Assembly: GCA_024404315.1 (NCBI GenBank)
Contig: JAKSQD010000007.1
Span: 1-61,724 of the forward strand
Length of the DNA: 61,724 bases
DNA from: Oscillospiraceae bacterium
GTDB taxonomy: Bacteria; Bacillota; Clostridia; Oscillospirales; Oscillospiraceae
Direction: 5' to 3'
Shown: one piece after another, positions 26,747-30,856 of the stretch
Layout of the letters: every line of letters begins with the position of its first letter
How positions within the stretch are numbered: position 1 is the stretch's first letter
Position numbers and translations under genes: made by a program
Notes under the pieces: model-generated
What the model was told of the DNA's origin: nothing
Databases searched by the model: none
What the model saw: only the letters and a program-made list of their open reading frames with translations

Positions 26747-26782
26747 AGGGATGAAACAGACAATCACGCTGGATTCATCCCT
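26747..26782 (+). other. Hairpin covering the upstream thiN start
   Basis: AGGGATGAA (26747-26755) and TTCATCCCT (26774-26782) form a 9-bp perfect stem with an 18-base loop. The left arm includes the end of the GGAGGG sequence and the ATG at 26751. It could mask that start or act as a weak attenuator. Confidence 0.4.
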
Positions 26783-26810
26783 TCGTTGTTTGGATTGGAG
26801 CAATCTGTTT

Positions 26811-27446
26811 ATGGATATCAAAAACAAAAGGGCGGTCATCATTGGTGCAGCTCCTTGTCAGACCTTGGATTATCTGGCTCCCTATCTTCGAGAAGATGAT
26901 TTCATTATCTGTGCGGATGGCGGCCGTGTCAACTGCGAAAAAGCTGGCTTAACCCCCCATTGGTATGTGGGGGATGGAGATTCTGGCGGCTGGGGAGAAG
27001 GGCTTCCTTCCATGACCCTTCCCACGGAAAAGGATTTCACGGACTCTGAAGCCGCTGTTCATCAGGCGTTGCGGATGGGATATCGTTCTTTGCTCCTCTG
27101 TGCCTGTACCGGCGGAAGACAGGATCACCACCTGGCGAACCTCTTCCTCCTGGAAGCGATTCATCAGCAGAACGGCGAAGCCCTCCTGTTGGATGAGACA
27201 AACGAAATTCGCTATCTTGCTCCGGGCTGCTACACCATTTCCAACGAACCCGATTATCATTATCTCGGTTTGATTCCGTTGGATTCTACGCTGGAGGGTG
27301 TTACTCTGCGCAACGTGAAGTATGAAGTAACCAATTTGACCTTCCGGCGCTGGGAGACCTTGGGAGTGAGCAATGAGATTCTTCCTGGCCGTTCGGCGGA
27401 GGTCTCTTTCACCGCTGGAGCCGCTCTGCTAATTCGCTCTCATTAA
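26811..27446 (+). CDS. thiN: Thiamine diphosphokinase
   Basis: ThiN, about 211 aa, makes thiamine diphosphate from thiamine and ATP. RAVIIGAAPC opens the fold, CADGGRVNCEKAGLTPHWYVGDGDS carries the catalytic Asp residues (in parts GG and VGDGDS), and CTGGRQDHHLANLFLLE is the second signature. An ATG at 26751 would add 20 residues, but GGAGG is only 1 base before it and it lies inside a hairpin. The ATG at 26811 gives the normal family length with TGGAG 10 bases upstream. The start is therefore likely but not certain. Confidence 0.88.
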   Translation: MDIKNKRAVIIGAAPCQTLDYLAPYLREDDFIICADGGRVNCEKAGLTPHWYVGDGDSGGWGEGLPSMTLPTEKDFTDSEAAVHQALRMGYRSLLLCACTGGRQDHHLANLFLLEAIHQQNGEALLLDETNEIRYLAPGCYTISNEPDYHYLGLIPLDSTLEGVTLRNVKYEVTNLTFRRWETLGVSNEILPGRSAEVSFTAGAALLIRSH

Positions 27447-27448
27447 AT

Positions 27449-27479
27449 AGTCACAAATCACCGCTTCCCATCGTATACT
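27449..27479 (+). promoter_or_regulatory. Candidate sporulation-type (sigma-E-like) promoter
   Basis: AGTCACAAA (27449-27457) and CGTATACT (27472-27479) are 14 bases apart, a spacing typical of sigma-E promoters, just after thiN and before the sporulation genes. The match is loose, so this is only a candidate. Confidence 0.3.
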
Positions 27480-27525
27480 GGAACAGGCTGCATCAGCCGG
27501 ACAGCTGCGAAGGGAGGCGGTGTTT

Positions 27526-27678
27526 TTGCGTAGACGGTGGAATTGCTGCGGATGTTGGGGAAGATACCTGATCGCGCTGGGCGTAGGCATTATTCTTGCG
27601 CTGGTCATGCCGGTCAGTGCCATCATCTTCGTGGCTGGCCTGTCTCTGATCCTGCTGGGAACCACGATACTGAGATAA
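27526..27678 (+). CDS. Small membrane peptide, 50 aa, upstream of spoVM
   Basis: A 50-codon frame with a TTG start and GGAGG at 27513-27517, 8 bases upstream. The N-terminus is basic and cysteine-rich (RRRWN, then CCGC), followed by two hydrophobic stretches (about residues 14-28 and 30-48) split by a proline at 29, which could form a hairpin in the membrane. It ends TTILR. I do not recognise a family. Its position between thiN and spoVM suggests expression with the sporulation genes. It is probably a real gene given the clean ribosome-binding site, but no function is proposed. Confidence 0.6.
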   Translation: MRRRWNCCGCWGRYLIALGVGIILALVMPVSAIIFVAGLSLILLGTTILR

Positions 27679-27702
27679 AAGTCAATGGAAAGGGGAATCT
27701 CT

Positions 27703-27774
27703 ATGAAAATCGTCATTGTTCGTGCGCCGAAGCTGTTGGCAGGGATGCTGAAAGCGATTTTCCACGTCAAATAG
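27703..27774 (+). CDS. spoVM: SpoVM, stage V sporulation peptide
   Basis: A 23-codon gene with an ATG and AAAGGGG 6 bases upstream. Aligned without gaps to Bacillus SpoVM (26 aa), it keeps Met1, Lys2, Pro9, Lys10, Leu12, Gly14 and Ala18, with Arg7 and Lys17 as conservative changes: MKIVIVRAPK, then LLAG. SpoVM is an amphipathic helix that sits on the forespore membrane, senses its curvature through the region around Pro9, and anchors SpoIVA. Gene order supports the call: in Bacillus spoVM also lies downstream of thiN, and here sipL and spoIVA follow. Only 23 residues are present; the basic C-terminal end of the Bacillus peptide is missing. Confidence 0.88.
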   Translation: MKIVIVRAPKLLAGMLKAIFHVK

Positions 27775-27853
27775 CAGACATATCCAACCGCAGAACCTCA
27801 TATGCTGTGGCAGAACGATTCCGCAGCGAGCGGACGAAAGGAGAGGTCTGCGT

Positions 27854-29365
27854 TTGAACGTACCATTGCATCAGGAGGAACGAAAGTGCTGGGAAACCAC
27901 CCTCAGCACCGTGCTCAATCGGGAAGAAACGCTGGAAATGATTGTGCCGGATGCCTGTCCTGATATCCAGGACATTGTGGACACGGATGGATGCCTTCAG
28001 CTTCGGAATAAAGACTGCGCTGAGGGCTGCATTTCGCTCGGTGGAGTGGTTCCGTGCAGCATTCTCTATCAACCGGAGGGCGGCGGGGCGCTCTGCCAGC
28101 TGAAAGCAGAGGTGCCATTTCAGTTCACAGCGGAGCTGGAAGGTGCGGAGGCATCCAGCCAGTGCGTTGTCCGCCCTCAGCTCACCCTGGCCGAAACCAG
28201 AGCCATCAATCCACGAAAAGTGCTCATCCGAGTTGGTTTCCATTTTGAAATCACCCTTTGCCGCCCTACCATCCAACGATGCGTCAGCGAAATTCTGGAT
28301 CGAGAACTGCTCGGCATCGAGCAACGAAAAGAGCAGCAAAGCGGCAGCTTTCTCACCTATGTGGGGCAGCGGAGTTTTCCTGTCTCCGACATGGCGCAGC
28401 TGCCCGGCAGTCGCCCAGCCCTCCGGGAGCTGCTCCGCAGTCGGTGCCGAGCCTACGTTTCCGAATCCCGTCTGACCGGCGGTAAGGTAATCCTGAAAGG
28501 CGGGATTGCTCTCAAGCTGCTGTATCTGGATCGGGAAGAGGAGGTTTGTTCCGCAGAGCTGGAGATTCCCTTCTCCCAAATCATTGATGTGGGGGGAGCG
28601 TCAGATACTGCCAGTTTTCAACTTTTCGTTGTACTCACCGACTGCCAAATTGAACCAGAGGACGAAGAGGGAAGGGAACTGTCCGTAGAGCTGGAGCTGT
28701 TGGCGCAGATTCTGGTTCGGGAAGAGCAGGTTTTTCCGCTTGTGACCGACGCTTATAGCATTCGCAGCCCTGGAATACCGGAGTTTACCGTCTGTCTGCT
28801 GCCTAAGCTTCTGGAGCAAACCGTCCGCCGTCAAACCATCCGTGAGATTGTGGAAACGCCCACCATGGCTCAGGAGGTTTGCGACGCACGGGCGTATCCT
28901 GGACAGGTTCGTCTGATGAACGGGGAATTGGTGGCGGAAGTGCGCCTTCACGGTCTCTATGTTACAGAATCGGGCGGTTATGCCTCGGTTATGCGACAAA
29001 TTCAAGTGAAGTGTCCCGTAGAAGTGCCGGAGGGCGTTGTTTGTCTTGCCTGGTGCGAAGTGGCGGAGCTGGACGCTGCGGCCAGTTCCGGCGGGGTTGA
29101 GTTCCGTATAGGGGTAGATTTCCATTGGATGCTCTTGGAACAAAAGCGCATCGACTGCATTTCTGCTTTCCAGATGGAGGCAGACGAAACTCGACACCAA
29201 GAGCATCAGCCCTCTGTGGTTCTGCGTCAGGTAACAGCAGGAGAAAGTCTTTGGGATGTGGCGAAGTCCTACCTCACCACGAGGGAAGAAATCCGCCTGG
29301 CCAACGAGTTGGAAGGCGACAAAGTGGAGGAAGGACAATTGCTGTTGATTCCCAGAAAGCGGTAA
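27854..29365 (+). CDS. sipL: SipL-like spore coat morphogenesis protein (SPOCS + LysM)
   Basis: A 503-aa protein with repeated DUF3794/SPOCS domains (roughly residues 25-150, 165-290 and 310-430) and a C-terminal LysM domain (about 455-500: ESLWDVAKSYLTTREEI to LLLIPRKR). This is the architecture of SipL of Clostridioides difficile, whose LysM domain binds SpoIVA so that both encase the forespore. TTG start at 27854, with AAAGGAG 10 bases upstream. spoIVA starts 12 bases after its stop, which is strong context support. No signal peptide, as expected for a mother-cell protein. Confidence 0.92.
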   Translation: MNVPLHQEERKCWETTLSTVLNREETLEMIVPDACPDIQDIVDTDGCLQLRNKDCAEGCISLGGVVPCSILYQPEGGGALCQLKAEVPFQFTAELEGAEASSQCVVRPQLTLAETRAINPRKVLIRVGFHFEITLCRPTIQRCVSEILDRELLGIEQRKEQQSGSFLTYVGQRSFPVSDMAQLPGSRPALRELLRSRCRAYVSESRLTGGKVILKGGIALKLLYLDREEEVCSAELEIPFSQIIDVGGASDTASFQLFVVLTDCQIEPEDEEGRELSVELELLAQILVREEQVFPLVTDAYSIRSPGIPEFTVCLLPKLLEQTVRRQTIREIVETPTMAQEVCDARAYPGQVRLMNGELVAEVRLHGLYVTESGGYASVMRQIQVKCPVEVPEGVVCLAWCEVAELDAAASSGGVEFRIGVDFHWMLLEQKRIDCISAFQMEADETRHQEHQPSVVLRQVTAGESLWDVAKSYLTTREEIRLANELEGDKVEEGQLLLIPRKR

Positions 29366-29377
29366 GGAGGGAGAAGG

Positions 29378-30856
29378 ATGGAGAGCAGGAAAATTTATGA
29401 GGACATTGCCCGCCGAACCAGCGGTGACATCTATATTGGGGTAGTGGGACCGGTTCGCACGGGAAAATCCACCTTCATCAAGCGGTTTATGGAAACGCTG
29501 GTCATTCCCAACATCGACAATGTGTACCGGAGAGAACGAGCCAGAGACGAACTGCCTCAAAGTGGTTCTGGCCGCACCATTATGACAGCGGAACCAAAGT
29601 TTGTCCCGGAAGAGGCGGTGCAAATTGAGGTGGAAGGTGGAGTCAGTCTTTCTGTCCGCCTGATTGACAGCGTTGGGTATCTCGTGAATGGAGCGGTGGG
29701 TCAGATGGAGGATGACGCTCCTCGGATGGTGACAACCCCTTGGTTTGACCACGAAATTCCCATGACAGAGGCGGCGGAAGTTGGCACACGAAAGGTCATT
29801 GCCGAGCACTCCACCATTGGTATTGTCATCACCACAGATGGAACCGTTACGGATATTCCCCGAGAGGATTACATCGAAGCGGAAGAACGGGTCATCCGAG
29901 AGCTACAGGAATTGGGCAAGCCGTTTCTGGTTCTGCTCAATTCCGACCATCCGGCAGACCCAATGACGGTCAGCATGGCAAAAGATCTTTCCAAACGGTT
30001 TGGTGTCTCCTGTTTGCCCGTGAACTGCCTGACGCTGGATGAGGAGGATGTCGCAGATATCATCAAGGCGGTTCTCTATGAATTTCCGCTGAAAGAGCTG
30101 GATCTTTTCCTACCCAGTTGGGTGGACGCTTTGCCCTATACCCATCCCATCAAGGAGGAGCTTTACAGCATCATTCGGGAGAAAGCCAAGGCGCTGCGCC
30201 GCATCCGGGAGGCACGAGAAGTGACCGCCGCAATGGGGCAGGGGAGCACCATCAGCCGAGCCGAAATCACCTCCATCAGTTTGGGCAGCGGTGTGGCGCA
30301 AGCGGAGTTGGAAGTTCCCAGAACCTTGTTCTATGCCACCCTGAGTGAACAGTCTGGCTTTACCGTTCGGGATGACGGCGATTTGCTGGGACTCTTGACC
30401 TCTCTGTCCGCCGTGAAAGGGGAGTATGACAAGGTGTCGGAGGCGCTGCGCAATGTCAGAGAAGAAGGCTATGGCATCGTGATTCCCTCCATTGATGAGC
30501 TGACGCTGGAAGAACCGGAAATTGTCCGTCAAGGAGGCCGCTATGGAGTCAAGCTCCGTGCCAGTGCTCCTTCCATTCATATGCTCCGTGCCGATATCGA
30601 AACGGTGATTTCGCCCATTGTCGGCAGTGAAAAACAGTCGGAAGAGATGATTTCCTATCTGCTGCAAGAATTCGAGGGGGATACCAAAAAAATCTGGGAA
30701 TCCAATATCTTTGGAAAGTCGTTCCATGAGTTGGTCAACGAGGATTTGCAAGGCAAGCTCATGCGTATGCCGGAGGATGCCCGCAAAAAGCTGCGGGAAA
30801 CGCTGGAGCGTATCATCAACGAGGGCAGCGGCGGGTTGATTTGTATCATTCTCTAA
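29378..30856 (+). CDS. spoIVA: Stage IV sporulation protein A (coat ATPase)
   Basis: SpoIVA, 492 aa, the ATP-hydrolysing structural protein that polymerises as the basement layer of the spore coat on the forespore. The Walker A GPVRTGKS is at residues 24-31, followed by a TRAFAC-GTPase-like domain with IDSVGYLVNGA. The middle and C-terminal domains are complete, ending GGLICIIL, the conserved hydrophobic tail that contacts SpoVM. AAGGAGGG precedes the ATG. Its localisation partners SpoVM and SipL are encoded directly upstream. No terminator is evident in the following 75 bases. Confidence 0.97.
   Translation: MESRKIYEDIARRTSGDIYIGVVGPVRTGKSTFIKRFMETLVIPNIDNVYRRERARDELPQSGSGRTIMTAEPKFVPEEAVQIEVEGGVSLSVRLIDSVGYLVNGAVGQMEDDAPRMVTTPWFDHEIPMTEAAEVGTRKVIAEHSTIGIVITTDGTVTDIPREDYIEAEERVIRELQELGKPFLVLLNSDHPADPMTVSMAKDLSKRFGVSCLPVNCLTLDEEDVADIIKAVLYEFPLKELDLFLPSWVDALPYTHPIKEELYSIIREKAKALRRIREAREVTAAMGQGSTISRAEITSISLGSGVAQAELEVPRTLFYATLSEQSGFTVRDDGDLLGLLTSLSAVKGEYDKVSEALRNVREEGYGIVIPSIDELTLEEPEIVRQGGRYGVKLRASAPSIHMLRADIETVISPIVGSEKQSEEMISYLLQEFEGDTKKIWESNIFGKSFHELVNEDLQGKLMRMPEDARKKLRETLERIINEGSGGLICIIL

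Follow-up and report, generated by a model that had tools for sequence, protein, structure and literature searches.

Little is known of the way in which the spore coat is attached to the forespore in Clostridia. The sporulation locus studied here lies in a 61,724-nucleotide stretch of DNA from an Oscillospiraceae bacterium (contig JAKSQD010000007.1), which is called the window below. A first-pass annotation had proposed a 23-codon spoVM gene there, between thiN and sipL. We confirm spoVM and its neighborhood, which is an already known sort of locus, and describe an overlooked small gene, TM50, directly upstream of spoVM, together with a predicted hairpin and a putative promoter ahead of it that had likewise gone unnoticed. 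TM50 represents a conserved, unnamed gene family that is broader than published and likely functions in sporulation. The features are listed in Table 1.

Table 1. Features of the thiN-spoIVA region, with positions in the window
Feature	Position	Strand	Basis and remarks
thiN, thiamine pyrophosphokinase, last gene of prkC-rsgA-thiN	26751..27446	+	TIGR01378 139 bits; PF04263, PF04265
Putative sigma-E-like promoter	27451..27479	+	TCACAAA (27451-27457), 14 bp, CGTATACT (27472-27479)
Predicted hairpin	27459..27522	+	5' arm CACCGCTTCCC 27459-27469; 3' arm GGGAGGCGGTG 27512-27522; then TTTTTG
Leader expected in sigma-E RNA	27486..27525	+	Predicted start about 27486; 5' arm absent
TM50, putative 50-residue membrane-hairpin protein	27526..27678	+	Profile A1; putative TTG start, from alignment of relatives
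spoVM	27703..27774	+	23 residues, ATG 27703 to TAG 27774; NF033436 33 bits, cut-off 31
sipL (SPOCS domain and LysM)	27854..29365	+	PF12673 E 1.9e-24; LysM (PF01476) E 3e-7
spoIVA, Gly at position 486	29378..30856	+	TIGR02836 717.9 bits

The spoVM frame encodes MKIVIVRAPKLLAGMLKAIFHVK, and AAAGGGG stands immediately 5' of its start. The NCBIfam model NF033436 (SpoVM_broad) accepts the peptide (E 4.3e-8) and, run against the whole genome, places only this frame above its cut-off (31.8 bits; runner-up E 0.54); a Pfam scan of the peptide gave no match, and a search of solved structures gave chance-level matches only. Our genus set comprised 32 genomes, and the sipL locus was obtained in 30 of them (genome G336 is counted both here, as L156, and in the family set, as L084). 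The frame is open in all 30 loci, the window counted, and each has a purine-rich stretch ahead of it (rows read by eye). The start codon is ATG in 17 and GTG in 13, Pro9 is kept in 30/30, and Gly14 is kept in 29/30, with Arg in L156. Pro9 is the residue conserved throughout the SpoVM alignment published in PMC5607322. Compared with the Bacillus peptide, Pro9, Lys10, Leu12, Gly14, and Ala18 are retained as the first-pass annotation had it. The pooled pN/pS is 0.16 among six close relatives and 0.32 over 29 loci, and the window compared with nine relatives gives 0.11 to 0.28, in pairs that share ancestry. The helix is amphipathic, with a moment of 0.50 versus a permuted-residue mean of 0.25 (p 0.015). 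The model match, its uniqueness in the genome, the conservation, and the low pN/pS together indicate a real and ordinary spoVM; that this frame encodes a genuine SpoVM leaves hardly any room for doubt. The peptide has 23 residues and lacks the basic end of the Bacillus peptide, as described at first; 23 residues is a usual length here (range, 22 to 30 among class and genus rows). An earlier start at 27685, giving 29 residues, was rejected because it overlaps the spoVM ribosome-binding site and scores lower. The remark that genes this small are usually missed agrees with the literature, in which spoVM is already reported to be seldom recognized in genome annotation (PMC3533761, available part).

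SipL carries both PF12673 and PF01476 above the Pfam cut-offs, and SpoIVA matches TIGR02836 over its full length (1-492 of 492; cut-off, 459.9 bits). These matches confirm the identities of the genes previously placed next to spoVM, and spoVM, sipL, and spoIVA are adjacent in the window. The idea of a compact unit of three basement-layer genes is borne out here as adjacency; among relatives, the steadier core is TM50-(spoVM)-sipL, with spoIVA added in some genomes only. Of 61 family genomes, 50 yielded SpoIVA, and sipL lies directly 5' of spoIVA in 17 of the 40 SpoIVA loci whose upstream sequence reaches 2.5 kb or more. In the 45 family sipL loci that have 500 or more bases upstream, TM50 is found in 36, spoVM (at least 15 bits) in 28, and a weaker spoVM candidate in 3; family sipL genes were sought by tblastn with the window protein, so that distant ones may be missed. 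Outside the family, the order thiN-TM50-spoVM-sipL-spoIVA recurs in two genomes of another family of the same order (L116 and L117), and sipL directly follows TM50-spoVM in L266, also of the same order; SipL was not found in the other 17 of the 19 twelve-kilobase class loci. In six genomes of one other genus (L211, L212, L216, L223, L225, and L243), spoIVA is located 5' of TM50 and is oriented in the opposite direction, away from it.

Several loci depart from these patterns. SpoVM of L116 and L117 has Ser in place of Pro9 (MKVVVVKGSKFWGF...), contrary to the published invariance. In G336, which belongs to the window's genus, a gene insertion of nearly 3 kb separates thiN from TM50 (L084); it codes for a large, secreted-looking, repeat-rich protein, and TM50, spoVM, and sipL are still together behind it. 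In G315, two separate contigs carry a locus with rsgA (L138 and L139); TM50 and a weak candidate for spoVM accompany rsgA in one locus, and thiN, spoVM, and sipL accompany it in the other, through either a mixed assembly or a duplication. In the window, the spoVM-sipL gap (27775-27853) lies in a stretch, 27775-27862, that folds somewhat better than its shuffles (z -2.08).

TM50 sits between thiN and spoVM, 24 bases ahead of the latter; spoVM is thus downstream of thiN, as first reported, and not directly after it. A hydrophobic ORF lies 5' of spoVM in 13 of the 19 class loci first inspected. We built profile A1 from 20 TM50 proteins, the window protein included, and used profile A2 for SpoVM. 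A1 scores 57.8 bits (E 2.5e-15) in the window's own genome, whose protein is one of its rows. Pfam and NCBIfam returned no family for the window TM50 protein, and our literature search found no title on a TM50-like family. Weak, scattered matches of the 20 rows, most often to TIGR02840 (4/20; best E 0.007) and DUF6249 (3/20; best E 0.0017), were judged to be chance, and no homology between TM50 and SpoVM was detected. Among 291 Clostridia genomes, A1 matches 89, at one place each, and A2 matches 134. Both match in 56 genomes, and in 56/56 TM50 lies upstream of spoVM in the same orientation, with 20 to 118 bp between them. When the ten source genomes are removed, TM50 is directly upstream of spoVM in 46/46; in one of the 46, G282, the protein does not differ from that of a source row. 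When the SpoVM threshold is relaxed, spoVM follows within 350 bp in 72 of 88 class TM50 loci; three mirror positions gave 0, 1, and 0. The 147 TM50 proteins have a median length of 50 residues and a 34-residue core that averages 0.31 charged residues; the N tail is net positive in 146 and the C tail is non-negative in 143. The positive-inside rule would place both ends on the side of the mother-cell cytosol, in keeping with a two-helix hairpin, and TM50 is probably a two-helix membrane protein. We consider it likely that TM50 is a real sporulation gene.

The best A1 match in two C. difficile genomes is modest (24.4 bits; E 1.1e-4 and 1.2e-4), and the next matches (0.0085 and 0.0167) fall inside long frames. 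The matched ORF has 50 residues and stands immediately 5' of a SpoVM of 26 residues, beside a gene that we take to be rpmB; A2 barely finds this spoVM (E 0.58 in one genome, none in the other), which was read by eye. The length and place fit CD25622, a 50-residue protein whose gene is cotranscribed with spoVM, near rpmB, and which was described as unique to Peptostreptococcaceae (PMC5607322). The available part of that paper reports CD25622/spoVM as a mother-cell sporulation locus with early mother-cell expression. Bacillus requires SpoVM, whereas C. difficile can largely do without it; insertions in CD25622 and in spoVM caused an equal, mild defect, the former being thought polar on spoVM, and according to the authors CD25622 contributes little in C. 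difficile (PMC5607322). Our literature search for CD25622 and its other possible names found this paper alone, which was available in part.

Upstream of TM50, a motif recurs across loci: TAACATT, 14 bp, and CATATAAT. With a matrix derived from 29 family sites, the window promoter (row L155) scores 17.9 and the 84 class loci score 8.65, versus 4.09 (sd 0.24) for shuffled sequence, and 49 of the 84 beat all ten of their own shuffles. From these motifs, we infer that a sigma-E-type promoter drives the cluster. Its spacer contains the 5' arm of a predicted hairpin, in which ACCGCTTCCC pairs with GGGAGGCGGT, the TM50 ribosome-binding site, in the 3' arm. The predicted fold of 27447-27531 reaches -40.2 kcal/mol (z -5.30), and none of 200 shuffles was as good; 27486-27545 folds no better than its shuffles (z 0.22), with the ribosome-binding site unpaired in a predicted loop. 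An Rfam search of 27300-27900 gave no match.

The fold survey scored 144 of 151 TM50 loci. A z of -2 or lower was obtained in 20/20 genus, 23/39 family, and 18/84 class loci, versus 0/20, 1/23, and 5/69 at spoVM starts, which served as the control; loci that also had site pairing above 0.8 numbered 19/20, 17/38, and 7/83. Thus, the hairpin is regular in the window's genus, common in the family, and sporadic beyond. In RNAs predicted to start from the sigma-E promoters of 50 hairpin loci, the site is less paired in 36, strictly freed in 7, and more paired in 7; over the 20 genus loci, predicted pairing drops from 0.96 in read-through RNA to 0.59, about the level of spoVM starts. The arms of the genus stem pair in 98.9% of cells, versus 49 to 68% when the arms are slid. 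This alignment covers 19 of the 20 genus stretches (L164 was left out because the start chosen for it ended the stretch ahead of the T run). No two-sided base-pair changes were found among the 19 sequences, all changes being one-sided, and shuffling letters among sequences did no worse, so that the genus alignment gives no covariation support. In C. difficile, a hairpin also covers the site (z -5.33), and the control start there folds well too (z -3.06); the best matrix match lies above the entire hairpin, so that the site would stay paired (0.99 to 0.99) and the nested design is unsupported in that species. We regard the hairpin-promoter as a solid predicted feature of the window's genus; whether the hairpin insulates TM50 from read-through is close to an open call, leaning slightly toward no.

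Could the hairpin instead be no more than the thiN operon's terminator, set so close to the following gene that it overlaps the ribosome-binding site without any regulatory effect? The tail at hairpin loci is T rich: the T content from site to start is 0.53 at 45 hairpin loci, 0.28 at 99 other TM50 loci, and 0.31 at 113 spoVM starts. The run is missing in C. difficile, where GTTCC follows a hairpin that nonetheless covers the site, and in the genus the 3' arm is the ribosome-binding site itself, with a mean predicted pairing of 0.96 at TM50 versus 0.58 at spoVM starts. A hairpin that guards against read-through should be rarer behind divergent genes, and among class loci it is indeed commoner behind co-directional (14/37) than divergent (2/22) neighbors (p 0.018; for z values, p 0.001). 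This test used loci with at least 300 bases upstream and took orientation from the longest open frame, which left 66 of 142 without a clear orientation. Site pairing alone does not differ between the two orientations (p 0.45). A plain terminator accounts for the orientation bias too, and of the 14 co-directional class hairpin loci, half lack site pairing above 0.8, which also speaks for a plain terminator. A terminator without regulatory effect is a serious, if minority, possibility.

TM50 and spoVM do not always occur together. In the family, TM50 is matched in 41/61 genomes and SpoVM in 28/61; 20 genomes have both, adjacent in 19 and on different contigs in G315. Among the 21 with a TM50 match alone, G324 looks like chance (E 0.005 within a 426-codon frame), and in G293, G297, G305, and G313 TM50 has a weak candidate for spoVM next to it. 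Fifteen family genomes have TM50 directly before sipL without a spoVM candidate, in several with room too small for one, and a profile search (E 0.01) found no spoVM elsewhere in those genomes. In the class, no spoVM was found near TM50 in 16/88 loci. The reverse is also seen: TM50 is absent 5' of spoVM in 6/30 genus loci, spoVM occurs without a TM50 match at 10/47 family sipL loci (some holding an unrelated-looking or divergent hydrophobic ORF), and 78 of the 134 class genomes with SpoVM have no TM50 match. These findings show that the genes are separable.

Some of these loci carry other frames or remnants. The genus loci without TM50 before spoVM include a subclade of six genomes (L175 and L177 to L181); in L178 to L181, the place of TM50 is taken by the end of a long frame whose repeats look fibronectin-like by eye. 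In eight class loci with TM50 and without spoVM (L220, L227, L234, L236, L273, L277, L278, and L282), the frames after TM50 resemble, by eye, the reverse strand of C. difficile rpmB, as if spoVM had dropped out of a TM50-spoVM-rpmB locus. At G252:C5:515383-515457 and in L249, the SpoVM model match directly after TM50 spans two TAA codons and may be a decayed spoVM.

The partner of SpoVM also varies. B. subtilis SpoVM binding depends on SpoIVA Gly486, and the residue is Asn in C. difficile (PMC5607322). In the family, Gly486 is present in 25/25 genomes with spoVM, the window included, versus 9/13 without (p 0.0097, with relatedness ignored); the four exceptions have Ser, Thr, Thr, and Asn. The comparison excluded G322 (gap), G297 and G305 (weak spoVM), and G324, G325, and G340 (no sipL locus). 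The pattern would fit a contact that relaxed once spoVM was lost.

TM50 might also be a passenger or leader gene whose position helps to couple translation of spoVM or sipL, with no coat role of its own. The mild phenotype shared by the CD25622 and spoVM insertions (PMC5607322), the loss of TM50 from 6 genus loci, and the 78 class genomes with an unaccompanied SpoVM match are what such a gene would lead one to expect; its persistence without spoVM in 15 family genomes and 16 of 88 class loci is not. The pN/pS values divide in the same way, with 0.43 over 23 genus loci agreeing with a passenger and 0.08 among six close genomes disagreeing, and the nearly charge-free core and positive N tail are kept in almost all of the 147 proteins. 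On balance, we think a passenger unlikely.

The promoter could be of the vegetative sigma-70 type, making TM50 a housekeeping gene, because a sigma-70 scan also passes the window site (GTCACA, 18 bp, TATACT; 9/12 match at 27450-27479). The motif across loci is closer to the consensus of the mother-cell sigma factors, and the neighbors spoVM, sipL, and spoIVA are sporulation genes. The C. difficile locus, moreover, is reported as a mother-cell sporulation locus (PMC5607322), and a vegetative promoter is improbable. That spoVM itself is a chance match, as its mere 23 codons and the silence of Pfam might suggest, is refuted by the NF033436 score, the sole genome match, the frame open in 30/30 genus loci, and the low pN/pS, and we give this idea practically no weight.

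The explanation that we prefer is that TM50-spoVM-sipL-spoIVA forms a mother-cell basement-layer cluster that follows the housekeeping genes prkC-rsgA-thiN. In it, SpoVM would mark the forespore surface for SpoIVA as an ordinary amphipathic membrane peptide, and SipL would connect SpoIVA with the coat, as their counterparts do in Bacillus and C. difficile. TM50 would be a small membrane hairpin, its two termini facing the mother-cell cytosol, that is produced along with SpoVM, and it may help in seating the SpoIVA-SipL layer at the outer forespore membrane. The promoter driving the cluster would be of the sigma-E type, with the 5' arm of the hairpin in its spacer; read-through RNA from thiN would form the hairpin and terminate there or stay untranslated, and RNA started by sigma-E, which lacks the 5' arm, would be translated. 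Sigma-E use, read-through silencing, and the role of TM50 are deduced from sequence. Taken as a whole, a basement-layer cluster with a membrane role for TM50 and a sigma-E promoter with an insulating hairpin stands at about even chances, and the seating of the SpoIVA-SipL layer by TM50 is a tentative part of it. Equally speculative is the boldest form of this explanation, in which TM50 is an unrecognized core part of the clostridial basement layer that anchors SipL-SpoIVA and can dispense with SpoVM, and in which, in the family, a sigma-E promoter within a terminator hairpin that hides the ribosome-binding site insulates its expression. If TM50 were such an anchor, able to do without SpoVM, lineages could have lost spoVM and kept TM50. 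A gene found beside spoVM across Clostridia, and kept where spoVM is gone, is a direct candidate for the missing anchor.

Compared with known systems, the window SpoVM shares with those of B. subtilis and C. difficile (NF033436) Pro9, the amphipathic helix after it, a place near thiN, and a SpoIVA partner with Gly486; it differs in having 23 residues, no long basic tail, and sipL and spoIVA downstream. CD25622, like TM50, has 50 residues and lies directly upstream of spoVM, and it is the best match of the TM50 profile in both genomes searched. It was published as restricted to Peptostreptococcaceae, whereas TM50 is found across Clostridia, lies beside sipL in the window's family, and is kept where spoVM is lost; CD25622 would widen from a family-specific gene to a class-wide one. 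As for the hairpin, phage T4 late genes have a ribosome-binding site that is hidden in early RNA and freed when transcription starts at a late promoter inside the hairpin; that arrangement belongs to a phage, and the TM50 hairpin belongs to a chromosomal sporulation cluster. Nearer to hand is B. subtilis sigG, where translation of spoIIG read-through RNA is proposed to be blocked by a large hairpin with over 20 pairs, one that RNA started at sigG's own promoter is unable to form (PMC5942855, available part). The TM50 hairpin shares with it the proposed block of read-through RNA, and its 5' arm would be missing from RNA started at the putative sigma-E promoter. The gene and the compartment are other ones, and at TM50 the promoter spacer supplies the 5' arm, and the ribosome-binding site itself, followed by a T run, makes up the 3' arm. 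With this precedent, the regulatory design at TM50 is one already known, in a new place, and the hairpin-promoter would be its second instance in sporulation.
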